The notes beneath the pieces were generated by a model. The model was not told where the DNA came from. It searched no databases and was given only the letters and a program-made list of their open reading frames with translations. Below are positions 27,883 to 39,423 of a stretch of 64,000 nucleotides of DNA, one piece after another (the first letter of the stretch is position 1; the number at the start of each line of letters is the position of its first letter). The DNA is taken from the NCBI RefSeq assembly GCF_001050195.2, contig NZ_DF967966.1, forward strand, positions 65,204 to 129,203, in the 5' to 3' direction. Source of the stretch: Anaerolinea thermolimosa. GTDB taxonomy: Bacteria; Chloroflexota; Anaerolineae; Anaerolineales; Anaerolineaceae. The position numbers and the translations under genes are program-made.

Positions 27883-30000
27883 TTAATAACTCGTTAGCTT
27901 TTCCACCTTCACCACCCGGGTTGCGGTACGCCCTTCGGTGCAGACCAGTCCCACGGCGCCGCTGTGCAGGGGGTGTTCAGGGTCTTCCGCTTCGAAGAGC
28001 TTTTCGCCGTTCACCCAGGCGCTCAGATGGTTGCCGTTGCCTTCCAGGGCCAGCAGGTAGGTTTGCCCGTATTCCCACGCGAAGGGGGCTTCGGCGAGAA
28101 CGCTGGTCTGGTCGTACCACTGTTTGATGAGGCGTGCCCTGCCCCCCGGAGCGAGCAGGAGGGCATAATAGCGCCGCAGGCCCTGAACGCGGATCGCCAG
28201 CCCCGCCGCATTGACCATGTGCGGGGTTACATCGGCTTCTGCGCGGTAGTTCTCCCAGTCCAGTGTGCCCTGAATAAGCAGACCGGTGCCTTCGTTCTGG
28301 ATCAGCCGGAAAGGTTCATCCCAGCTCATAAAATCGGTCACGGCATTTACCCAGGCCAGTCGCCAGGCGGGGTTGGTACCCTCGGGGCGGGTGAAGAGCA
28401 CCGTTGGGGCGCCTTTCCAGTCCAGATAGTCAAGATACAGTGTGCCGCGAGCTCCCTGGGGTGATTGAATTTCCAGCCCAATTTCGGCGATGGGCCAGCC
28501 ACCGGTTTCGGGAATGGGCCAGGTGAAGGTATATTCCTCTCCGGCGACCAGGGTGGTTTCGGGGCCGTAGAGGCGTGTCAGCCCGCCTTCTGGTGCGTGG
28601 CATTGCAGGTAGAGCCGGCAGACGGCCGGCTGGGCGTTGTTGGCATCTGCCACTATCCCGGCGCTCACTACCTGCCCCGGGTAGAGGGTGGGGCTGGCAA
28701 AGAGTGAGTAACTGCGCATCTGAAGCGCTTCAGCGGGGAGGAAAGTTGGGGTAGCCACCCGTGCTGGCTGTCCGGGGGCTGTGTGTGCATAATGGATCGC
28801 CAGGCTGTGACGTCCGAGCCGGCTGTGGCCGATGACATTTTCGATCTGGGCCGGGCCGCGCCCCTCGACCAGTGGCTCAACGCGAAAGCCCTGCACCGCC
28901 CCGGGTAACTCAAAGTGAAAGCGTGCCCCGCGCTTGGGGTGCACCGGGGGCAGGCCAGCCAGCGTGCGGCCAATATTGGCCACCCGGAAGGCCACCTGAA
29001 CAGCATCGGTAATGCATGAGCCGCCTTCAGCCGTGGGCAGGTAAAGCCTGTCAGCCACCGGGCCGCGCCAGTCGGGGCCGGCATGGATGCCCTGCAGACC
29101 ATTCTTGATGCCCATCAGGCACCCCACATTCCCGCTGTTGCAATCGGTGTCCCACCCGGCGGTGTTGGTGATCATGAGCGTCTTCTGGAAATCATCTTCT
29201 CCGTAGAGCAGTCCCAGAAGGATGAGCGCATGGTTGGGTACCATGTGGCAGTTTCCACCATAACGGTCATAACCGTAATGTTGCACAATGAGCTTTCGGG
29301 CTTCACGCCAGTCGGGGGTTTTCTCACGCCAGTCACGCAGGTCGGCGATCAGGCGGTAGATGAGCGAGTCGCGGGGGATGAGAGAGGTAGCCACATCCAG
29401 CAGGCGGTTGAGGCTGGGTTCAATGAAGGCCTGGGATTCCATGGCGGCCAGCACTTGCGCACCGTAAATGGCTTCACCATCATGGCTGACCGAAGCAGCG
29501 CGGCGCGCCAGGTCGGCGGCCAGGTCGGGCTGGCCCGGGGCCACCATGGCCCAGCCATCGATGAAAATCTGTGCGCCGATTTGCTCCGCAACCACCTTGC
29601 CGTTCAAGGCTATCGACCCGCTTTGCGGGGCTGGAATGCCCTTCTTCAGGCGCAGATAGGCTGTATGCTCGGTGGAGTTACCCAGCCCACCCCACCAGAG
29701 CACGGTGCGCCCTTCGATCAGATAGTTCAGCCAGGTTTGACCGATTTGCGCCGGGGTGATGTTTCGGTCGTGGTCAAAGTCTGGCAGGGCGCGCAAGAAG
29801 GTGAAGGTGCCGGAGATATCATCATCGGTAACGACCAGGGGAACACCGCGCTTCTCGTGGACGTAATACCACACCTCGCCCAGCTCAGCCATAATTTTGT
29901 CGTACGTCCAGCCTTCAAATGGCCGGCCCAGATAGACGCCGATAATCTTTCCCAGCACACCGGCGTAGACTTTTTCTTCGTAATTTGCAGGAAGAGCCAT
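27883..30000 (-). CDS. ADP-ribosylglycohydrolase-family protein with beta-sandwich C-terminus (copy 1)
   Basis: The protein is 705 residues without a signal peptide. The first ~345 residues carry the DraG/ARH fold with its two-metal motifs: VVTDDDISGTF, SHDGEAIYG and WDTDCNSGN. A linker beta domain (about 350-520) follows. A concanavalin-like domain of the LamG/DUF1080 type (about 530-705; IQGTLDWENYRAEAD, AIRVQGLRRYYALLL, LSAWVNGEKLFE) closes the protein. DraG proteins hydrolyse N- or O-glycosidic bonds of ADP-ribose. Fusion to carbohydrate-type beta-sandwiches, and a place 13 bp after a sugar ABC permease gene, suggest instead a glycosidase-like role on an imported sugar or nucleoside; this is inference. 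A paralogue lies at 34620-36731. Confidence 0.8.
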   Translation of the reverse strand: MALPANYEEKVYAGVLGKIIGVYLGRPFEGWTYDKIMAELGEVWYYVHEKRGVPLVVTDDDISGTFTFLRALPDFDHDRNITPAQIGQTWLNYLIEGRTVLWWGGLGNSTEHTAYLRLKKGIPAPQSGSIALNGKVVAEQIGAQIFIDGWAMVAPGQPDLAADLARRAASVSHDGEAIYGAQVLAAMESQAFIEPSLNRLLDVATSLIPRDSLIYRLIADLRDWREKTPDWREARKLIVQHYGYDRYGGNCHMVPNHALILLGLLYGEDDFQKTLMITNTAGWDTDCNSGNVGCLMGIKNGLQGIHAGPDWRGPVADRLYLPTAEGGSCITDAVQVAFRVANIGRTLAGLPPVHPKRGARFHFELPGAVQGFRVEPLVEGRGPAQIENVIGHSRLGRHSLAIHYAHTAPGQPARVATPTFLPAEALQMRSYSLFASPTLYPGQVVSAGIVADANNAQPAVCRLYLQCHAPEGGLTRLYGPETTLVAGEEYTFTWPIPETGGWPIAEIGLEIQSPQGARGTLYLDYLDWKGAPTVLFTRPEGTNPAWRLAWVNAVTDFMSWDEPFRLIQNEGTGLLIQGTLDWENYRAEADVTPHMVNAAGLAIRVQGLRRYYALLLAPGGRARLIKQWYDQTSVLAEAPFAWEYGQTYLLALEGNGNHLSAWVNGEKLFEAEDPEHPLHSGAVGLVCTEGRTATRVVKVEKLTSY
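29921..29970 (-). repeat. 50-bp exact repeat shared with the second ADP-ribosylglycohydrolase gene
   Basis: This stretch is identical base for base to 36652-36701. Both encode VYAGVLGKIIGVYLGRP near the N-terminus of the two paralogues, which differ clearly elsewhere. Both copies are in direct orientation. Confidence 0.9.
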
Positions 30001-30013
30001 AGTATTACTCCTT

Positions 30014-30868
30014 TTACCCCTTCAAGCCACCTTGGGTCAATCCTTCGATGAACCTTCTTTGCATTAACAAGAATAACACCACAAGAGGAAAGATCATCAT
30101 CACTGCACCTGCGCTTGTGAGACCCCAATCACGCCCCCCGTACGCGGTGGAAAAATTATAGTAGCTGGTTACTACCGTAAAGAGTTCCTGCTTGGTTAAA
30201 AAGACCGTCGCCAACAGGTATTCATTCCAGACGCTGAGCCCTACGACCAGTCCCACAGTCAGGAAGGCCGGCCAGGCGAGTGGTACGACCACCCTTTGAA
30301 AAACATCCCACTCACCGGCCCCATCGACCCTGGCAGCATCTTCAAAATCGCTGGGTATCTGAATCATGTATGAGCGAAGCAAAAAAATGGAGAAGGGAGC
30401 ATTTGTTGCTACATAAATGATGATCAACCCAAGCAGGTTGTTTACCAAACCAAGTTTTCTCCACAGGAAAAAGAGCGGCACGAGGAAGAGCTGGATGGGT
30501 AAGCTGGAAGAGATCAGCATATACATGGTAAGAATTCCTGAGCCGGGTAAATTCAATTTAGCAATGCTGTAAGCAGCCATCCCACTCAAGATGAGTGTGG
30601 CAACAACGGTACCGGCCACTAAAATTAACGTATTGGGCAGAGTCTTTCCAAACTGGCCGACAACCCACGCTCGTGGATAGTTTGAGAGGATGATCTCTCT
30701 GGGAAACCCTATGAGGTTTCGGCCAGCATCGGCAGGGGTTTTCAGTGAATTAAATACCAGGATGACAAGCGGCCCAATAGCAAAGATTACCAAGAGGAGT
30801 ACAATAATGTAATTGGGTACCAAACTGGAAGTTCGGCGTGGGAACAAAAATCGCATCATATTTCCCAC
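30014..30868 (-). CDS. Sugar ABC transporter permease, MalG-like
   Basis: The protein is 284 residues with about six membrane helices. The cytoplasmic EAA loop reads EDAARVDGAGEWDVFQRVVVP, matching CUT1-family inner-membrane permeases that dock onto a shared ATPase. It pairs with the MalF-like permease just upstream, whose 3' end it overlaps by 13 bp. The ADP-ribosylglycohydrolase gene begins 13 bp after it. No ATPase gene is present, so the importer probably uses an ATPase encoded elsewhere, as many CUT1 systems do. The exact start within the first four codons is uncertain. Confidence 0.92.
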   Translation of the reverse strand: MGNMMRFLFPRRTSSLVPNYIIVLLLVIFAIGPLVILVFNSLKTPADAGRNLIGFPREIILSNYPRAWVVGQFGKTLPNTLILVAGTVVATLILSGMAAYSIAKLNLPGSGILTMYMLISSSLPIQLFLVPLFFLWRKLGLVNNLLGLIIIYVATNAPFSIFLLRSYMIQIPSDFEDAARVDGAGEWDVFQRVVVPLAWPAFLTVGLVVGLSVWNEYLLATVFLTKQELFTVVTSYYNFSTAYGGRDWGLTSAGAVMMIFPLVVLFLLMQRRFIEGLTQGGLKG

Positions 30869-31782
30869 CCTCTCTTTCTAAGGATTTGGAATATTCCAAT
30901 AATAATACCTGCGAAAAAGCTCATGGTCAGGCCGATCGCTGCGGCATAACCTGCGTTGAAACGCTGGAAGGCATTTTTGAATACAAGAATGCTCAATAAC
31001 TCTGAAGCGCCTGCCGGGCCTCCTTGGGTTGTAATCCATACGTAGTCAAAGGCCAGGAAAGACCAGATTCCGGTCATGAGTAACATGAATACAAGGGTGG
31101 GGCGAATACCAGGTAATGTTACATGGATAAATTCATTCCATCGATTCGCGCCATCAATCTTTGCCGCGTCGTACAGTTCCTGCGGAACGCTTTGCATTGC
31201 GGTCAGGAACAGCACCATTAAAAATCCCCACCAGTGCCAGTTATCCACAAAGGCAGCCGCTAATAATGCTGTGTCGGTACGGCCAAAATACGCAATGTTT
31301 AAGAAAGGCATTCCCAGGCGAGCCGCCACTCCTCCCAACCCAATATCAATGTGAAGCAAATCTTTCCAAATACTTGCCGTGATCACACTGGGCAAAATAT
31401 AAGGAATAAATAGGATGGCCCGGAAGAAGAGCCCTCCCTTTTTCAGGGGCGCAATCAGACTGGCTGCAATGAGAGCCATTGCAATGGGAATGGTCAGGAA
31501 GAATAATAACCAGATCAGATTATTCTGGAAAGCGTGGATATATTGCCTGTCAGTGGTAATTTTTTGGAAATTCGCGAGCCCGATAAATTTAGCGGGTCCA
31601 ATTCCATTCCACTCTGTTAATGAGAAGTAAATTGAACTGATGGATGGACCAAGTACCACCGTCATGTGAATGAGGAGAATAGGCAGTACAAATAATACAG
31701 GAATTACTTTTCGATAAAAAAACTGCTTGGTTATCTTCGGTCTTGTGGGTGAGGAAAGGTCTTTCTTAATTAAGGTTCCCAT
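30856..31782 (-). CDS. Sugar ABC transporter permease, MalF-like
   Basis: The protein is 308 residues: a cytoplasmic N-terminus, then about six helices. The EAA loop reads YDAAKIDGANRWNEFIHVTLP, and the helix-end motif TQGGPAGASELLSILVF is typical of CUT1 MalF/UgpA proteins. It forms the heterodimeric channel with the MalG-like permease. It starts 74 bp after the binding-protein gene in the same transcript. A chance perfect DnaA-box-like TTATCCACA lies inside it at 31241-31249. Confidence 0.92.
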   Translation of the reverse strand: MGTLIKKDLSSPTRPKITKQFFYRKVIPVLFVLPILLIHMTVVLGPSISSIYFSLTEWNGIGPAKFIGLANFQKITTDRQYIHAFQNNLIWLLFFLTIPIAMALIAASLIAPLKKGGLFFRAILFIPYILPSVITASIWKDLLHIDIGLGGVAARLGMPFLNIAYFGRTDTALLAAAFVDNWHWWGFLMVLFLTAMQSVPQELYDAAKIDGANRWNEFIHVTLPGIRPTLVFMLLMTGIWSFLAFDYVWITTQGGPAGASELLSILVFKNAFQRFNAGYAAAIGLTMSFFAGIIIGIFQILRKRGWEI

Positions 31783-31856
31783 AAAAGCCCCTTATCAATT
31801 TCTGTGGGCGGATATCGAAAGGATACCCGCCCACAGAAGGTTTCTCAAGTTACAGG

Positions 31857-33242
31857 TTACTTTCGTTCGGGAATAGGCGGGATGTTCCCTGCCTTGAGTT
31901 CTTCCTGGAAAAGATCGTTCAGGCCTTTGAGGTAATCCTGTACGGTTACCTGTTTTGCCCAAACCTTCTCGATCTCATCGTAAATATATACGTCCGATTT
32001 CGGCGGCCAGAACGTCCAGGTAGTATACCCATACTGCCCATTTGCAGCTGCTTTACTGAGCTCTTCGATCAGGCGGGCGCGTCGTGGATCAATACCCTTC
32101 AGCTGTTGGGTGGTAAGGTTAATGGGGGCTGGAGCGATACCGCATTGAGTGATGCTAATAGATTGGGCTTCAGGAGAGAAGTAATAGGTAAGGAACTGGG
32201 CTGATTCTTTAGGGTATTTGGTCGCTGCATTGATCGAGTATGTAGAACCGATCCCTAAGGTGAATAGGGGAGAGCCATCTGTGGTTGGGAAGGGCACCCA
32301 ATCCCAGTCATTGGAATTGTTGGCTTTTTCACCAAAATAGTTGCCGATGGTTCCCATCCACCAGGTTCCAGATGGCGCCATGGCAGCTTTTCCATCACCC
32401 AGAGCTGTTAGGAATTCAGTGGATTTTGTTGTGTAGTATCGGTCCAGGCTTCCCATGAAATCGCCATTCATAAACAGTTGATTCATGGTATCGATTGCTT
32501 TTTCAAAATCTGGATCCGTCCATGGGATTTTTCCGGTCAGAGCATCATAGACTTTCTGGGGACCAGCCATGTGATTGACGAAGATACTCCAGTAGTGTTC
32601 ATCAGCGGGTTTCCAATCGGAGTTACCCGCAGCATTGGGGATTAAACCGGCCGCTTTGATATCTTCGACGAGTTTGAGGTATTCGTCAATGGTTTTTGGC
32701 GGTTTCCACCCATGCTGTTCAAACACTGTTTTGTTGTAATAGAGTACCAGGGTTTCAATTTCATGAGGGATGCTGTAGAGTTTACCATCCACCTTACCAA
32801 GGGAAAGCGCCCATGGTAAGAATTGTTTATCCCACCCGAATTCCTGGGCATATTGATCGAGGGCGAGCAACTGACCGGCTTTTGCCATCTCATAAGCAAA
32901 AGATGGGCCTGGGGTAATCACAATATCAGGGCCACCGCCTCCTGTGATAGCAGTGCGGGTTGCATCCCACGAGTTCGCCAAAGGCTGGGCTTCCACAGTG
33001 AAGCTGTTGCCTTTTTTGTTGAAATTGCCCACAATGTTATCAATCATGCATTGCAATTGTGTGGCGTCGCCCCCGGAGTCTAGCCACAGGGTAATGGTGG
33101 GTTTTTTCTCAGAGGTTTGCCCGGATTCAGTCGTCCCGCCGGTCTGTTGCGAAGCCGGTGCCTGGGTGCTGGAAGGTGCACACGAAGCCAGGAGTAACGT
33201 GGCAACAACGAGCACAATGACGAAGCGTCTCATAAGGTTCAT
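31857..33242 (-). CDS. Sugar ABC transporter substrate-binding lipoprotein
   Basis: The protein is 461 residues. The signal peptide ends in LLLASC and a Ser/Thr/Gln linker follows. The mature part matches the CUT1 family-1 extracellular binding proteins: ITLWLDSGGD at the first strand, GGGPDIVITPG, LALDQYAQEFGW, YYNKTVFEQHGWKPPKTIDEY and PSGTWWMG. It captures an oligosaccharide or glycoside for the two permeases. The ATG at 33242 is used because AGGAGG lies 4 bases upstream; ATG 33233 is an alternative. Upstream TTGATG and GTAAAT, 17 bp apart on the minus strand, could form its promoter. Confidence 0.9.
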   Translation of the reverse strand: MNLMRRFVIVLVVATLLLASCAPSSTQAPASQQTGGTTESGQTSEKKPTITLWLDSGGDATQLQCMIDNIVGNFNKKGNSFTVEAQPLANSWDATRTAITGGGGPDIVITPGPSFAYEMAKAGQLLALDQYAQEFGWDKQFLPWALSLGKVDGKLYSIPHEIETLVLYYNKTVFEQHGWKPPKTIDEYLKLVEDIKAAGLIPNAAGNSDWKPADEHYWSIFVNHMAGPQKVYDALTGKIPWTDPDFEKAIDTMNQLFMNGDFMGSLDRYYTTKSTEFLTALGDGKAAMAPSGTWWMGTIGNYFGEKANNSNDWDWVPFPTTDGSPLFTLGIGSTYSINAATKYPKESAQFLTYYFSPEAQSISITQCGIAPAPINLTTQQLKGIDPRRARLIEELSKAAANGQYGYTTWTFWPPKSDVYIYDEIEKVWAKQVTVQDYLKGLNDLFQEELKAGNIPPIPERK

Positions 33243-33365
33243 TTCTCCTCCTGTTGAGCAGGTCAATACAAAATGGCTGATTGATCTGAATGATTTACCG
33301 GTTAAGCTGCCGGTACATCAACAAAAAAAGATGGTTACTTCCTGATATTCATCACCTCCAATTTC

Positions 33366-34385
33366 TCAGGCTGATTCTCTTATGACTAACTCATAGGGCA
33401 TTTCCACCACTCTTCCCCCCGCTGGGGCATGACCGTTCAGGCGCTCAATCACCAGCTGTGCGGCGCGGGCTCCCATCTCATGCTGGAACTGACGAATGGT
33501 TGTGAGTGCAGGGGTAACTAAAGAAGCGGCGGGAATGTCGTCAAACCCAATAACACTGAGGTCATCGGGCACGCGTAGTCCGGCCTCGCGGATAGCTTTC
33601 ATAGCCCCAATGGCCATGAGGTCGTTGGCGGCAAAAATGGCTGTAGGGCATTCACCGGGGGGGCGTTGTAACAATCTGTGCATTCCTTCGTAGCCCCCAC
33701 GCTCATCGTAGGTTTCCACTTCGATGATGTCAGACTCGAGGTGCTCTTCAACCAGGCGCAGTGCCTGTAAAAAGCCTTCGCGGCGGGCTTCACGTGGGCC
33801 GAAAAAGCCGGTGATCATCGCCAGCCGTCGATGTCCCTTGCGAAGCAGATAGGTTGTGGCGTCTCGTGCGGCGGCCTGATTATCGACATAAATATTATCC
33901 AGGGGAAGTTCTCCCGCAGAATGCCTGCGAACTTCCAGGCGAGCTACGGCGATGTTTTGCTCGAAGAGCGATTGCAGGTCTCGCGCGTGGAGGTGGAAGA
34001 AAACACCCACCACCCCATCTGCCCGCCCCTGTCGTGCCAGATGGATGACTTTGGCTTCCCGGTTAGCATCAGCCTGGGTGTTGTAGATGATGATCTCGTA
34101 GCCATTGGCTTCGGCGGTATTTTGCACCCCGCTTACAAATGCCGGGTAAAACGGGTTGGTGATAGAGGGGATGATGCAGGCCAGAGTATGCGTGCGGGTG
34201 GTGCGCAGGGTACGAGCGGCGCTGTTGGGAATATACCCCAGTTGCCGGATGGCCTCGAGGACTTTGGTACGTGTCTCTGGAGGCACGGATTGGGTATCAG
34301 GGTTGTTGAGTACCAGCGAGACGGTGGTTTGAGACACTCCCGCAACCCGTGCGACATCAAATTGAGTGGGTTTCCTCTGTTTCAT
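33366..34385 (-). CDS. LacI-family transcriptional regulator
   Basis: The protein is 339 residues, the normal LacI length. The N-terminal helix-turn-helix reads [22 protein letters not shown] with the hinge helix [19 protein letters not shown] periplasmic-binding-protein-like sensor domain follows ([51 protein letters not shown]). It most likely represses the adjacent importer operon and itself in the absence of the sugar. The ATG at 34385 is chosen from homologue length. A TTG at 34421 would add 12 residues, and neither start has a clear ribosome-binding site. A LacI-type operator overlaps its own promoter. Confidence 0.92.
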
Positions 34386-34425
34386 TCTGGCTGACCGGGG
34401 TTCGGAAGGGGCCTGCTTCAAGAGA

Positions 34426-34474
34426 TAATACGTAACACTAATACGTATTATAACGAACTAAAAAAAAGAGTCAA
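34426..34474 (-). promoter_or_regulatory. lacI promoter with overlapping LacI-type operator
   Basis: On the minus strand TTGACT (34474-34469) and TATAAT (34452-34447) are 16 bp apart. The perfect palindrome TAATACGTATTA (34439-34450), with the central CG typical of LacI operators, covers the -10 box and start site. A second TAATACGTA lies at 34426-34434, 13 bp away. Binding there should block transcription, so the regulator is predicted to repress itself. Confidence 0.65.
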
Positions 34475-34530
34475 GCGTTTTGGGTCAATGTGTCTGTCCC
34501 AAAAATGGTGGGCGACTTTTGAAACCCCAC

Positions 34531-34612
34531 ATATGGGGGCAAATCCACCTGATTTACAACTTTTTATCACCATATGTGGCAAGCAATCAAAAACCAACCA
34601 GATATGGGACAA
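34531..34612. repeat. Three imperfect ATATG-containing repeats
   Basis: ATATGGGGGCAAA (34531), ATATGTGGCAA (34572) and ATATGGGACAAA (34602) share an ATATGKGRCAA core at spacings of 41 and 30 bp. They lie between the second ADP-ribosylglycohydrolase gene and lacI. They may be regulator-binding sites or decayed sequence. Confidence 0.4.
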
Positions 34613-34619
34613 ACACGGG

Positions 34620-36731
34620 TCAATGGATGAGCCCATCCACACGAATGGCATGAGTGGCCAGATGCCCTTCGAAAACCGTCAGGGCAATCCCCCCTTCCAG
34701 CAAGGGTCGGTCGGAATCAATCTCATCAAAAAAGAGCGTATTTTCAACCCAGGCCTGCAGGCGGGGACCCGCCGCTGTGAGAGTCAGCCGGTATGGATGC
34801 CAGATTTCCCAGTCGAATGGCATTTCTGCCAGAATATGCTCTCCATCCCGGTATTTGCTCAACCGCACTTTTCCCCCCCGTATCAACTCCAGTGCGTAAA
34901 AACGTTCCAGCCCCTGGACCCGCACGGCAATTCCACCTCGCTCAAACAGGGCTGAGGTGATCACCGAACTGGTTGTGTAATCTCGCCAGCTGCGTGTTCC
35001 GGTGATGATCATTCCCCGTCCGCGGTCCTGGATGATCCGAAAGGCGTGGTGAAAACGATTTTCCCAGTGATCCACGGCCTGCACCCAGGCTCGTCGCCAG
35101 ATCTCAGGGTATTTACTATCAGGGCGCTGCGGGCGGCGGAATTCCACCCGGGGGCACCCATCCCACCCCAGGCGGTCCAGCGTGATCCTGATGGAAGTGG
35201 GGTGCGCGGGCAAGGCCTGCCCTGCGGGTACCCTGGCCTGAAGGCCAATTTCAAAGATGGGGCAACCGTTAAGTTCAGGAATCGTCCAGAAAAGCTCCAC
35301 CTCTTCTCCGGGGGGCAATGGAGCCAGATCTCCAGCGAGAAGTTCTGGTTGATCCAGTGCGTTGTAAAAACGCAGAAACAGCCCAACTTCCAGGGTGCAC
35401 ACGTTGGCAGGGTTAGCTGTTACCAGAGCCACCACCTTTTGCCCCGGGTAAAGGGCGGGTGAGGCCAGTAAGGGATAATTTCCGGTGAGTTGAAGATCCT
35501 CGGGCAGAATAAAGGTTGCTGTAGATGCACGAGACCACACGTCGGGCCGGGCAGGTGTAAAGTGAACCTCTAATCCTTCCCCCAGAGGATTGGACAGACG
35601 TGCATTCTCTGCCCGAAACCCCTGAACACTCCCGGGCATACAAAAATGAAAGTGTGCCCCTTCTTTTGGAGAAATTGGGGGCAGGTGTTCCAGAGCTCGC
35701 CCTATGTTCACCACATGGAGGGCTTCCGTCAGAGCATCGGTGATAGCCCGGCCACCATCGGCTGTAGGGAGGAACAAACGATCGGCAACCGGTCCCCTCC
35801 AGTCTATTTGGCCATCAAAAGCAGATAACCCATTGCGGATGCCCAGCAGGCAGCCCAGGTTCCCGGCGTTGCAATCGGTATCCCAACCGCAGGAACAGGT
35901 TACGCTCAGTGATTGTGAAAAGTCGCCCCGCCCGTATAGCAAACCGAGCAGGAAGAGAGCGTGGTTCGGGATGATGTGACACCCCCCGATGTATTTTTTG
36001 TATCCGTAATTTTCAGAAATTCGCCTGTACGTTTCACGCCAGTTGCCATCTTGAGCAACCCAGCGTCGCACGTCCTGAGCCAGTTTACTGATGAGGGATT
36101 TGGGTGGAATAAAAAGGAGACCTGAATCCAACAGGTGATCGATGTCTTTTTCGACAAAAGCCAGCGATTCCATCGCGGCGATCAACCGGGCGGCGTTGAT
36201 GGCCTCATCATCATGGCTGACCCGCGCCGCGCGCTCGGCAAAATCTGCTGCCAGTCTGGGGTTACCCGGAGCAATCATGGCCCAACCATCGATGTAGATT
36301 TGAGCGCCGATCTGGTTGGCAATGACTGGGCCATTCAACTCTATCGAACCGCTTTTGGGGGCCGCGATGCCCCGTTTGAGATTGAGATACGCTGTATGTT
36401 CGGTAGAATGGTATAACCCGCCCCACCAGAGGATGGTGAGGTTTTCAATGATGTAGTTCAACCAAGTTTGGCCAATTTGAGCGGAAGTAATGGCAGGGTC
36501 ATAGTCATAATCTTCGATGGCTCTCAAGAAGGTAAAGGTTCCAGCGATATCATCATCGGTAACCACGATGGGTTTTCCCCAGCATGGGCTCAAATAGGAG
36601 TGTATCTCACCGACCTTCTCGACAATTTCCTGGTAACGCCAGTTTTCTACGGGCCGGCCCAGATAGACGCCGATAATCTTTCCCAGCACACCGGCGTAGA
36701 CACGTTCGAGGTAATCGGGAGGAAGACTCAT
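34620..36731 (-). CDS. ADP-ribosylglycohydrolase-family protein with beta-sandwich C-terminus (copy 2)
   Basis: The protein is 703 residues, collinear with the protein at 27883-30000. It keeps the DraG metal motifs VVTDDDIAGTF, SHDDEAINAA and WDTDCNAGN, a linker beta domain, and a concanavalin-like C-terminus (IITGTRSWRDYTTSS, AIRVQGLERFYALELI, LQAWVENTLFF). SHDDEA against SHDGEA is the main visible active-site difference, so the paralogues may differ in substrate. There is no signal peptide. The ATG at 36731 is preferred, with GGTGG 6 bases upstream. It starts 23 bp after the CHAT gene and so may be on that transcript, but functionally it belongs with the importer cluster. Confidence 0.8.
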   Translation of the reverse strand: MSLPPDYLERVYAGVLGKIIGVYLGRPVENWRYQEIVEKVGEIHSYLSPCWGKPIVVTDDDIAGTFTFLRAIEDYDYDPAITSAQIGQTWLNYIIENLTILWWGGLYHSTEHTAYLNLKRGIAAPKSGSIELNGPVIANQIGAQIYIDGWAMIAPGNPRLAADFAERAARVSHDDEAINAARLIAAMESLAFVEKDIDHLLDSGLLFIPPKSLISKLAQDVRRWVAQDGNWRETYRRISENYGYKKYIGGCHIIPNHALFLLGLLYGRGDFSQSLSVTCSCGWDTDCNAGNLGCLLGIRNGLSAFDGQIDWRGPVADRLFLPTADGGRAITDALTEALHVVNIGRALEHLPPISPKEGAHFHFCMPGSVQGFRAENARLSNPLGEGLEVHFTPARPDVWSRASTATFILPEDLQLTGNYPLLASPALYPGQKVVALVTANPANVCTLEVGLFLRFYNALDQPELLAGDLAPLPPGEEVELFWTIPELNGCPIFEIGLQARVPAGQALPAHPTSIRITLDRLGWDGCPRVEFRRPQRPDSKYPEIWRRAWVQAVDHWENRFHHAFRIIQDRGRGMIITGTRSWRDYTTSSVITSALFERGGIAVRVQGLERFYALELIRGGKVRLSKYRDGEHILAEMPFDWEIWHPYRLTLTAAGPRLQAWVENTLFFDEIDSDRPLLEGGIALTVFEGHLATHAIRVDGLIH
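36652..36701 (-). repeat. 50-bp exact repeat shared with the first ADP-ribosylglycohydrolase gene
   Basis: Identical to 29921-29970 and in direct orientation, 6.7 kb away. Recombination between the copies would delete the importer and lacI and leave one fused hydrolase gene. Confidence 0.9.
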
Positions 36732-36754
36732 ATTCACCACCGGAAAATATAAAA

Positions 36755-38644
36755 CTAATGGGCGATTCGCGCCAGCGGATGCGCAAAGACGGTGTACGCC
36801 AGCCAGGTGGGGTCACCCGCGGGCTTGATGGCCAGCCGCGCCTCGCGCACAGCCCGCCCAACCGGCAGACCGCCGAGCAGGCGTGGGTACAGCTCGCGGG
36901 CGAAGAAATAAGCCGTGCGGTCGTAAATAGCCCAGTGAGCACCGATGAATGCTCCGGCCCCGGCGGCGAGAAATTGCCTTGCCCATCCACCTGCATCGGT
37001 CAGCGAGATGCCCCCCTGGCCAATCTGGCAGGCATTCAGGAAGACGAGCGGAGAGGTACGCCCAAGGTTGGCGGCTTCACCACTGAGGCGAATGGGGGTG
37101 AGTGTTTCCTGTTCGTCCAGGATCATTTCTGCCTGGTTGGGGTCTTTGCCGCGCGCCGCGCCATGCCCGCTGAAGTGCCAGCCATCATAGCTTCCGGTGC
37201 TGAAGGCTTTAAACAGATCAAGATAACGTGCCGGGATGGGTTCCACCTGCCGCCCGTTACCGGCCAGGCTGAGTAAAAATTGTAATTCAGCGGCACTGTA
37301 GGGCAACCCTGAGGAGGCAGGCACTACCACGGCGAGCCTGCTCAAATGCAGGGCCGGTTTGATGCCCGTCCCCGGGAGCCAGCGGGTCATCTCGAAAGCC
37401 TCACAGAAGAACGCTCCCTCGGTTTTTCTTCCATGTTCCATGCCGGTCAGCCGGCACAGCTCCCACGGCACCCACGGTTCGGCAGATTGAATGAATACCG
37501 TACGAATGCGCTCCCTCAGCGACCAGAGCAGTTCCTGCACCTCAGATGGAAAGAGATGTTCAAAGAGGAAAACCCCCCATCCTTCAAGTTCACGAGAAGC
37601 GCGGGATTGTTCATCCACAGAGGTCAGGGGCAGGCCTTCGATTTTTCGGTAGAAATCACTGAAAAACGCCCCCGGCTCAGACTGGAAGAGCACCGGCCCG
37701 TACTTTTTCAGGTTGAGGTTAAGGGAGGTGTCGCTGGCGCTCAGATACATCACGAACCCGCTCCGCCCGGTTCCATCACGGGTTTCTTCGATGTGCAATG
37801 AAAGGTCCGGGGTCTCTACCTGTACCTCGGCCAGAGGTTGGCCGAATTGCACACGTTCTCCCCCGGGAGGAGCTTCAGCCGGGGCAGGCACCACCTGCGG
37901 GTTCAGGCGCAGATACCCGATCACTGCTCCCTCGCGAAAGACGATCACCCGCAAATCGCCTTCGCCCGGCTCGATGGCCCGCAGAGTGAAGCGTAAGGGA
38001 AGGTACTCATCAGGGCTTCCCACCACCAGCCGACCGCGCGGCTCTCCTTCTACCTCAAGGCCGCGGCGGGCCTGAACAATCACGTCCAGCACACTGCCTG
38101 CCGGTTGCTCCACTTCAAGCCCGGGCCCACCAGGGCGGCCTCTCCTGCGAGAGAGCTTCACCCTGAGCACGGCTCTGGTGCCGAGGGCCAGGCTGGCGGG
38201 AAAATCAGCCTTGAGGTAGCGCTGCAACAGGCGTGCCCCCCGGGGACGCCCGCCTTCCAGAATTTCGGCGCGAAGAGCGCCTGCCAGCGGATGTACATAT
38301 CCTACCGGGCGCCCATCTTCAAGGACCACCGCTGGCTGGTTGCCTGTGGTTGCTTCTCCCGCGCCAAGCACCGGGCTTGCGCGCCACTCATGCAGGTCGA
38401 GTACAACCTCTACCGGCATCTCCGGTGGGGCGGTGCGCAGAAAGTCTTCGGCTTCGTGCCGGGTGTAGAGGTAATAATAATCCTGATCTCCCTGGAGCCG
38501 ATGCACCACTACAGCCACTGATTGACCGGCCTCCAGGAGGGCCAGGCTGAATCTGACCGACCAGTTTCCCTCCAGGAGGATGAAATCGTCTCGCGAGAGC
38601 TCGCGCGCAGATTGCATGGTTGGTTCTGCCTTCTGAAGGCTCAA
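36755..38644 (-). CDS. CHAT-domain caspase-like protease
   Basis: The protein is 629 residues. The C-terminal ~200 residues form a CHAT domain with the catalytic dyad His494 (WHFSGHGAARG) and Cys539 (VFLNACQIGQ). The N-terminal ~300 residues contain beta-rich segments that I cannot assign, and the middle region (VPWELCRLTG) is the usual lead-in to CHAT. CHAT proteases are separase/caspase relatives, often activated by partner proteins in stress or defence signalling. The ATG at 38644 overlaps the stop of the upstream membrane-protein gene (ATGA), so the two are translationally coupled. An ATG nine codons in is an alternative. There is no signal peptide or membrane helix. Confidence 0.88.
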   Translation of the reverse strand: MSLQKAEPTMQSARELSRDDFILLEGNWSVRFSLALLEAGQSVAVVVHRLQGDQDYYYLYTRHEAEDFLRTAPPEMPVEVVLDLHEWRASPVLGAGEATTGNQPAVVLEDGRPVGYVHPLAGALRAEILEGGRPRGARLLQRYLKADFPASLALGTRAVLRVKLSRRRGRPGGPGLEVEQPAGSVLDVIVQARRGLEVEGEPRGRLVVGSPDEYLPLRFTLRAIEPGEGDLRVIVFREGAVIGYLRLNPQVVPAPAEAPPGGERVQFGQPLAEVQVETPDLSLHIEETRDGTGRSGFVMYLSASDTSLNLNLKKYGPVLFQSEPGAFFSDFYRKIEGLPLTSVDEQSRASRELEGWGVFLFEHLFPSEVQELLWSLRERIRTVFIQSAEPWVPWELCRLTGMEHGRKTEGAFFCEAFEMTRWLPGTGIKPALHLSRLAVVVPASSGLPYSAAELQFLLSLAGNGRQVEPIPARYLDLFKAFSTGSYDGWHFSGHGAARGKDPNQAEMILDEQETLTPIRLSGEAANLGRTSPLVFLNACQIGQGGISLTDAGGWARQFLAAGAGAFIGAHWAIYDRTAYFFARELYPRLLGGLPVGRAVREARLAIKPAGDPTWLAYTVFAHPLARIAH

Positions 38645-39423
38645 TGTTCGCGGGTCATTCGGCGCAGTTCTTCAGCGCCGGCGGCCCATGCCTGCAGGGC
38701 CTGACTCATATCAGCCTGGGCGCGAGGAGCAGGGGCGGCCTGCATCTGGCTGGCCAGCTGGTTGGCCTGCTCAGCCAGTTCCCCGATGCGCTCTCCCATT
38801 CTTTTGCTTTGCGCTATGGCCTGTTCCCCTTTTTGAATGGCCTGTGCCGCCTGTTCCTGAGCCTGGGCGGCGCGCGCTTCTGCCGGGATGCGCCCAAAGT
38901 AATATCCGAGCACCACCCCAAGCAGACCGGTCATCACGGTAAGAATATCTTTAGCCTGGTTGAAGCGCGCTTCATCGCCAATGGTGCCGATCAGGGTCCT
39001 TACCAGGGAGATGGTCGTCCATACCAGCAGGATGGCGATCAGCGCAGTCACGGCTTCTTTAAAAATCTGGATAAAATCCTCGGTTTTGAAACCCCGCGGT
39101 GAGGGTTCAGCAGGGGCGGGCTGAGGAACAGGGGTAGCAGGGGGCATAGGTGATTCTCCTGAAGGGGCAGAGGGTGGGGTCTCGGTTGACGGCTGGGAAA
39201 GAGCGAAAGGATCAGGTTCAAGAAGGCGGGCAACCGCCGGAAATTCCATCACCAGCTGGCGCAACTGCCCGGCGACCTGCTCCGGGTCATCGCCCGCAGT
39301 GAGGGCATCGGTCAGGGCAAAGTAGCGTGCCTCAAAGGTTTGCCAGCCTTCGGGGGTGAGCACCTCTCGGATTTGCGTGCGGTGCGATTCGATTTGTTCA
39401 ATCCATTCTCTGGCAGTGGTCAT
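38641..39423 (-). CDS. Coiled-coil membrane protein paired with the CHAT protease
   Basis: The protein is 260 residues. The N-terminal ~70 residues are helical (ARLLEP end), followed by a Pro-rich linker (about 75-110). Two membrane helices lie at about 117-137 and 155-175. An Ala/Gln/Glu-rich coiled coil of about 80 residues extends to the C-terminus. The two-helix plus coiled-coil form, and the coupled CHAT gene, suggest a membrane sensor or anchor that presents or restrains the protease; this is inference. I do not recognise a named family. Confidence 0.7.
   Translation of the reverse strand: MTTAREWIEQIESHRTQIREVLTPEGWQTFEARYFALTDALTAGDDPEQVAGQLRQLVMEFPAVARLLEPDPFALSQPSTETPPSAPSGESPMPPATPVPQPAPAEPSPRGFKTEDFIQIFKEAVTALIAILLVWTTISLVRTLIGTIGDEARFNQAKDILTVMTGLLGVVLGYYFGRIPAEARAAQAQEQAAQAIQKGEQAIAQSKRMGERIGELAEQANQLASQMQAAPAPRAQADMSQALQAWAAGAEELRRMTREH

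Follow-up and report, generated by a model that had tools for sequence, protein, structure and literature searches.

As far as the available text of the sources goes, the characterised enzymes of the DraG/ARH family act on ADP-ribose (PMC7050489). The motifs given for them there are E...SDDT...DSDS for ARH1 and E...[T/S]DDT...DTDT for ARH3 (PMC6309922); in ARH3, Thr76 and Thr317 serve as metal ligands, and Asp77 and Asp314 also contact the 2''- and 3''-OH groups of the ribose (PMC8141533). DraG-type genes have also been recorded beside transporter and kinase genes: a staphylococcal DraG-permease-ribokinase trio is listed without a function in the accessible parts of two reports (PMC3637587, PMC3321955), and the Escherichia coli yegTUV genes are, according to the accessible part of another, repressed by GgaR with ADP-glucose as the effector (PMC10819704). 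Here, we describe a locus of Anaerolinea thermolimosa in which two DraG-type proteins, P0001 and P0002, flank a sugar importer of the ATP-binding cassette (ABC) type. It lies in a stretch of 64,000 nucleotides (contig NZ_DF967966.1, positions 65,204 to 129,203; the window) of a 4.17 Mb genome assembled in 6 contigs, and the best named relatives of the window are from Anaerolineae/Chloroflexota.

On the minus strand, the importer block reads P0002, a LacI-family regulator, the solute-binding protein (SBP) P0005, permease 1, permease 2 and P0001, which starts 13 bp past the end of the permease 2 gene. P0001 and P0002 are 50% identical from end to end, and the original prediction, made from the DNA alone, that two paralogous DraG/beta-sandwich proteins flank a sugar ABC importer with its LacI regulator is borne out by the gene order and the Pfam matches. 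For P0001 and P0002, we lean towards a predicted role as metal-dependent ribosidases of the cytoplasm, which would release ribose from an imported ribosyl compound. Import of a sugar-like ligand is suggested by the protein families, cleavage by the fold and the conserved residues, and ribose by linked kinases in other genomes together with one nucleoside operon.

Domain architecture and metal site

The AlphaFold2 (AF2) model of P0001 (predicted local distance difference test score 85.8; predicted template modelling score 0.90) folds into an all-helical DraG/ARH domain, a CBM22-like sandwich and a CBM66-like sandwich, so that a three-domain architecture is predicted from the model. In fold and length, the C-terminal sandwich (residues 534-704) is closest to the CBM66 of levanase, at 17-18% identity in the structural alignment. 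When profiles were compared with solved structures, profile A1 found a match and profile A2 found none at 0.01.

To examine the metal site, 114 long relatives were aligned with 19 short DraG proteins, five short partners and YegU; the residue register given here is that of this alignment, backed by the short relatives L167 and L176, which carry D-DD-T. Asp60, Asp61, Asp284 and Asp286 are invariant in all 114 long relatives, and Glu29 is present in 113 of them. The positions of ARH3 Thr76 and Thr317 are occupied by Asp59 and Cys287, respectively, in 114/114, which contradicts the original prediction that the DraG motifs are intact, since both Ser/Thr metal-ligand positions are substituted. The P0001 family thus shares the fold, the Glu and the four metal aspartates with ARH/DraG proteins, but not the Ser/Thr ligands; with the aspartates kept and the two threonine positions changed, the ribose-facing residues remain and the metal shell differs. 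Likewise in 114/114, Ile141 replaces the Asn of the NGAAMR segment and Phe146 its Arg. Gly142 and His173 are kept and, by motif, would correspond to the Gly and His that contact the pyrophosphate. Among the short DraG proteins of the surveyed genomes, 19/19 have N or D at position 59 and 18/19 have Cys at position 287; YegU of E. coli has the canonical TDDT and DTDT, with Thr where P0001 has Cys287.

Genomic context of the long DraG proteins

Our survey comprised 121 long-DraG loci including that of the window, reduced to 115 after six that were at least 95% alike had been dropped. As the 80 named loci were the 80 best among 563, close relatives are over-represented; the remaining stretches were drawn from samples of Chloroflexota only. 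Going by their record titles, the named loci belong to Chloroflexota, Pseudomonadota (with Rhizobiales), Bacillota, Armatimonadota, Planctomycetota, Verrucomicrobiota and others; among 400 sampled Chloroflexota genomes, 33 encode a relative of P0001 at E <= 1e-60.

Within 1 kb upstream of a long DraG gene, 43 open reading frames (ORFs) matching permeases lie on the same strand and none on the opposite one, and at 6-10 kb upstream the same-strand count is five. For PfkB matches, 19 same-strand and two opposite-strand genes were found within 1 kb, and two, both opposite, farther out. Counting only same-strand genes within 300 bp (115 loci), a permease is present in 21 cases, an SBP in 5, LacI in 4, PfkB in 17 and any of the four in 36. 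We compared the 80-locus set with 480 control ORFs by Fisher's test, and both adjacent permeases (19/80 vs 8/480; p 1e-11) and adjacent PfkB genes (13/80 vs 5/480; p 2e-8) were strongly enriched. Outside Chloroflexota, an adjacent permease or SBP occurs at 2/15 loci of Pseudomonadota, 1/5 of Bacillota and 1/2 of Verrucomicrobiota.

Mapped on the DraG tree, the context changes number 17 for permeases and 9 for PfkB, against shuffled means of 26.1 and 19.7; the context had several origins or losses, but these are clustered. A second, short PF03747-type protein, found with the c13 cluster profile, is encoded on the same strand, no more than about 3.6 kb away, at 8/115 loci (L043, L045, L052, L060, L086, L133, L152, L154), and a separate locus of Chloroflexota (L049) has the order LacI-DraG-SBP-permease-permease-DraG. 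The neighbour-family scans took in 64 of 100 listed in one set and 29 of 31 in another, with tallies over the first 25 families; L131, L133, L135, L146 and L148 contributed no neighbours to the second.

Nineteen short-DraG loci were tried as a control and rejected, since the two groups were not separated on kinases at 5 kb and some of the loci (L164) are themselves in CUT1 operons; the distance profile and the 480 control ORFs are used in their place. Within 1.5 kb, these loci have a permease in 2/19 cases (long DraG, 30/115) and PfkB in 0/19 (21/115); within 5 kb, the figures are 3/19 vs 39/115 for permeases and 9/19 vs 51/115 for any of the four classes. At L164 (5236-14804), LacI, a short DraG, an SBP, permeases, a second short DraG, an amidohydrolase and a GH4 enzyme follow one another, a DraG-CUT1 link that occurs without CBM domains.

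The importer and its binding protein

The block has the make-up of a CUT1 operon, with an SBP_bac_1/8 lipoprotein and two BPD_transp_1 permeases; its Pfam matches include no ATPase. CUT1 importer operons often lack an ATPase gene of their own. The solved chains nearest to P0005 are sugar-binding proteins, several of them named as oligosaccharide binders. For the LacI regulator, the best NCBIfam models are RbsR and CytR (220 bits each), far under the respective cut-offs of 382 and 436.

In a tree of 49 SBPs from surveyed loci, all of which had been picked for a DraG gene so that the contrast and not the bare count carries weight, 29 SBPs including P0005 form one starred clade (98). Its members, from several phyla, share 31-57% identity with P0005 along most of their length, and SBPs outside it match weakly. 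All 29 have a long DraG gene no farther than 3.6 kb away, 28 on the same strand and one (L109) on the opposite strand, whereas only 7 of the 20 SBPs outside the clade lie this close, one of these beside a short DraG. Since the SBPs of L152, L154, L065 and L078 are on the DraG side yet outside the P0005 clade, more than one importer type is in use. With at most four candidates scored per genome, 6/400 Chloroflexota genomes have a relative of P0005 at E <= 1e-60, and in four of these (G000, G394, G246, G021) a long DraG gene is beside it. SBP and DraG distances correlate over 27 loci (r 0.69; 0/5000 permutations), which, uncorrected for shared descent, is only suggestive; by distance, P0005 of the window fits P0001 as well as P0002 (0.33 each).

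In L184 and L185, two genomes that share a genus, a 41% identical SBP is encoded together with permeases and with no DraG nearby. There, the permeases are followed by a protein of 361-366 amino acids with weak similarity to alcohol dehydrogenase; a PDB search with one L184/L185 neighbour gave no match at 1e-15.

Linked kinases and a nucleoside operon

Fifteen linked kinases, all from other genomes, were scanned against the ribokinase model TIGR02152, whose curated cut-off is 299.65 bits. Nine exceed it (L034, L048, L065, L066, L078, L146, L148, L149, L154), and none of the 15 passes the fructokinase cut-off. The kinase of L154 matches solved ribokinases, and its gene closes the order LacI, short DraG, permease, permease, SBP, long DraG, ribokinase. 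At L151, from the same family as the window genome, a SIS-domain protein, UPF0047, an SBP, two permeases, two DraG proteins and PfkB are followed by a phosphorylase-superfamily protein, an IU-type nucleoside hydrolase and a nucleoside deoxyribosyltransferase. The upstream permeases, the ribokinase-type kinases and the L151 operon thus lend support from genomic context to the original prediction that the DraG domain cleaves a glycosidic bond in the imported ligand, and allow it to be narrowed to ribose; the link to the importer is real but partial.

In the window genome itself, a third DraG protein (L168, contig 1, 269600-286600; 523 amino acids, short type) is encoded not far from an ABC importer of the Bmp/PnrA type, which lies on the opposite strand, possibly a nucleoside system.

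In the proposed pathway, the CUT1-type importer would bring in the ribosyl compound; P0005 would deliver a ribosyl glycoside or a ribosyl oligosaccharide, or perhaps a nucleoside. The CBM-like domains might hold the glycone or the aglycone, and the two-metal site, whose ARH3 counterpart touches the ribose 2''- and 3''-OH, would activate water to break the C1 bond. The freed ribose would be phosphorylated by a ribokinase encoded elsewhere in the genome, and the presence of ligand or ribose would make LacI let go of the operon.

Weighing the substrate

A number of observations weigh against ribose release by an importer-linked enzyme. No kinase gene is found near the importer block in the window: all 11 PfkB matches of the genome are on contig 1, whereas the window is on contig 2, and one of the eight that were scanned passes the ribokinase cut-off. 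Six of the 15 linked kinases elsewhere fail that cut-off, with L110 and the split fragment L137 under it and L067, L068, L072 and L151 distant or unmatched; L067, L068 and L072 are the tested kinases of the largest kinase-bearing clade. Adjacent PfkB genes are confined to Chloroflexota (17/17), and at 5 kb the short-DraG loci have PfkB at 5/19 compared with 21/115 for long DraG. Adjacent SBP (3/80 vs 5/480; p 0.09) and LacI genes (4/80 vs 6/480; p 0.04) show weak or no enrichment, and 79 of 115 copies lack a same-strand permease, SBP, LacI or PfkB gene at a distance of up to 300 bp, so that the link is statistically strong yet missing beside most copies. The nearest orthologue of P0001 (75%), in G001, lacks an importer for about 8 kb around it, and G362 and G374 have a related importer without a DraG beside it. 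The original prediction that the DraG-importer association recurs in other genomes therefore stands as far as permease enrichment goes; with a same-strand permease within 300 bp at only 21 of the 115 loci and none at the nearest orthologue, the loss that it had named as evidence against itself was in part observed. Finally, the altered metal ligands could point to a substrate other than a riboside, and CBM66 of levanase binds fructose.

The last point leads to the alternative that survives best, although we regard it as unlikely: a different furanoside, e.g., a fructofuranoside or arabinofuranoside, is cut, and the ribokinase link holds for some members only. The C-terminal domain nearest to levanase CBM66, the oligosaccharide binders among the solved sugar-binding chains nearest to P0005 and the kinases of L067, L068 and L072 fit it, but the ribokinase cut-off is passed by nine of 15 kinases and the fructokinase cut-off by none, L151 has nucleoside genes, and ADP-ribose is the substrate in the accessible account of characterised family members (PMC7050489). 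We rate slightly lower still the possibility that the proteins are nucleoside N-ribosidases for base salvage, with nucleosides imported and the base freed by the DraG domain. Besides the L151 operon, an adenine-deaminase-like gene of L125, which shares its strand with the DraG gene and lies 3.3 kb away from it, the position of the window genome's short DraG near a Bmp/PnrA-type importer, the nucleobase-type permease of the staphylococcal trio as given in the accessible parts of its reports (PMC3637587, PMC3321955) and YegT, a predicted nucleoside symporter, would agree with it; the CUT1-type importer and the two CBM-like domains point to glycans instead, and nucleoside-type enzymes occur in a single operon among the scanned neighbours (first 25 families). 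That P0001 and P0002 are true protein (ADP-ribosyl)hydrolases regulating the importer or a conflict system is very improbable: the DraG/ARH fold, the retained metal aspartates and the adjoining CHAT/TCAD7 gene in the window and G001 would suit such signalling, but CHAT occurs at only 2/115 loci, neither protein has a PADLOC match, no ADP-ribosyltransferase is among the neighbour families (first 25 of 68 and of 43), and the Ser/Thr ligands and the NGAAMR Asn are replaced throughout.

We therefore retain ribose release as the favoured function, and put forward a wider proposal more tentatively, as one that may well prove wrong. DraG-fold ribofuranosidases with a rebuilt DDD/DTDC site, fused CBM22-/CBM66-like domains, their own CUT1 SBP clade (Chloroflexota, Rhizobiales, Bacillota and others) and, in Chloroflexota, a ribokinase might form a large class of metal-dependent glycoside hydrolases that has been filed as protein-repair enzymes and serves a ribofuranoside-eating pathway. 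If so, the fold of a signalling enzyme has been turned to nutrient digestion, and environmental ribose is reached by an unfamiliar enzyme route. Family membership is the sole ground on which thousands of proteins are named ADP-ribosylglycohydrolase, and much of that annotation would be functionally wrong should the present branch digest ribosides.

History of the locus and flanking genes

In G001, of the same genus, a CHAT gene, a single DraG gene and a CBM9 gene stand with both flanks in the order of the window, and the 18 kb examined hold neither P0002 nor an importer. The cassette of the window lies between CHAT and P0001. Its GC content at third codon positions (GC3) is 0.49-0.60, compared with 0.71 for P0001, 0.66 for CHAT and 0.62 for another flanking gene, a contrast that is modest for LacI and P0002. 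None of nine relatives searched has a P0005 relative at E <= 1e-40; G021, a member of the family, does encode one, at 33%. In the DraG tree, P0001 and P0002 do not pair as sisters. The P0002-importer cassette was probably inserted here rather than lost in G001, and the flanked layout would then be a resident DraG gene with an incoming DraG-importer cassette directly upstream (Table 1).

Table 1. Positions of the importer block and of the parts of P0001 in the window
Feature	Position	Strand	Evidence
P0001, 705 amino acids, DraG + CBM22-like + CBM66-like, resident copy	27883..30000	-	PF03747 E 4e-53; AF2 model; synteny with G001 DraG gene
P0001 residues 4-350, DraG/ARH catalytic-type domain	28951..29991	-	
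P0001 D59-D60-D61, first metal motif (ARH: [S/T]DD)	29818..29826	-	alignment of long relatives
P0001 D284-T285-D286-C287, second metal motif (ARH: D[T/S]D[T/S])	29140..29151	-	alignment of long relatives
P0001 residues 357-531, CBM22-like beta-sandwich	28408..28932	-	
P0001 residues 534-704, CBM66-like beta-sandwich	27889..28401	-	
Permease 2, CUT1-type, just before P0001	30014..30868	-	PF00528
Permease 1, CUT1-type	30856..31782	-	PF00528
P0005, solute-binding lipoprotein; alternative start ATG at 33242 possible	31857..33266	-	PF01547/PF13416
LacI-family regulator	33366..34421	-	PF00356, PF13377
P0002, 706 amino acids, P0001 paralogue; ATG start possible at 36731	34620..36740	-	PF03747 E 9e-51
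Predicted inserted cassette P0002-LacI-SBP-permease-permease	30001..36754	-	absent in G001, GC3, no SBP relative at E <= 1e-40 among nine relatives

On the other side of P0001, P0007 (25375-27441, minus strand; 688 amino acids) has a GC content of 32% in a 57% GC window, is membrane-protein-like by eye and has no Pfam match. Nothing resembling it lies between the DraG and CBM9 genes of G001, so that it is likely a second insertion beside P0001. At 36755-39423 (minus strand), a CHAT + TCAD7 + DUF7363 protein overlaps a partner of 260 amino acids; both are conserved in G001 and look like a conflict-system pair.

Comparison with known systems

Our search of the open literature, which left subscription papers outside its range, found no description of a DraG/CBM-like protein with a sugar importer and no paper with the word "ribofuranosidase". 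The catabolic system can therefore be called undescribed, as originally predicted, in this combination only, since DraG-permease-kinase trios are already in print without a function.

Where DraG, ARH1 and ARH3 (PF03747) have [S/T]DDT and D[T/S]D[T/S], the P0001 family has DDD and DTDC, with Ile for the Asn of NGAAMR; it also adds two CBM-like domains and, in part of the family, a sugar-importer context. The CBM66 of Bacillus subtilis levanase resembles residues 534-704 in fold and length, and P0001 has no signal peptide. The staphylococcal trio (SERP2216-2218 type) likewise has a DraG-type gene, a small-molecule permease and a ribokinase in a row, but, as far as the accessible parts of the reports describe it, its DraG is short (a 987 bp gene) and its permease is of the nucleobase type, not a CUT1 ABC importer (PMC3637587, PMC3321955). 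The E. coli yegTUV genes similarly combine a transporter, the DraG family protein YegU and the sugar-kinase-type YegV; they differ in that the transporter is a predicted nucleoside:H+ symporter and YegU keeps its canonical motifs. If the ribosidase reading is true, the same logic makes both yegTUV and the staphylococcal trio testable. DraG-permease-kinase trios are already known from E. coli and staphylococci, and the present system is a variant of these.
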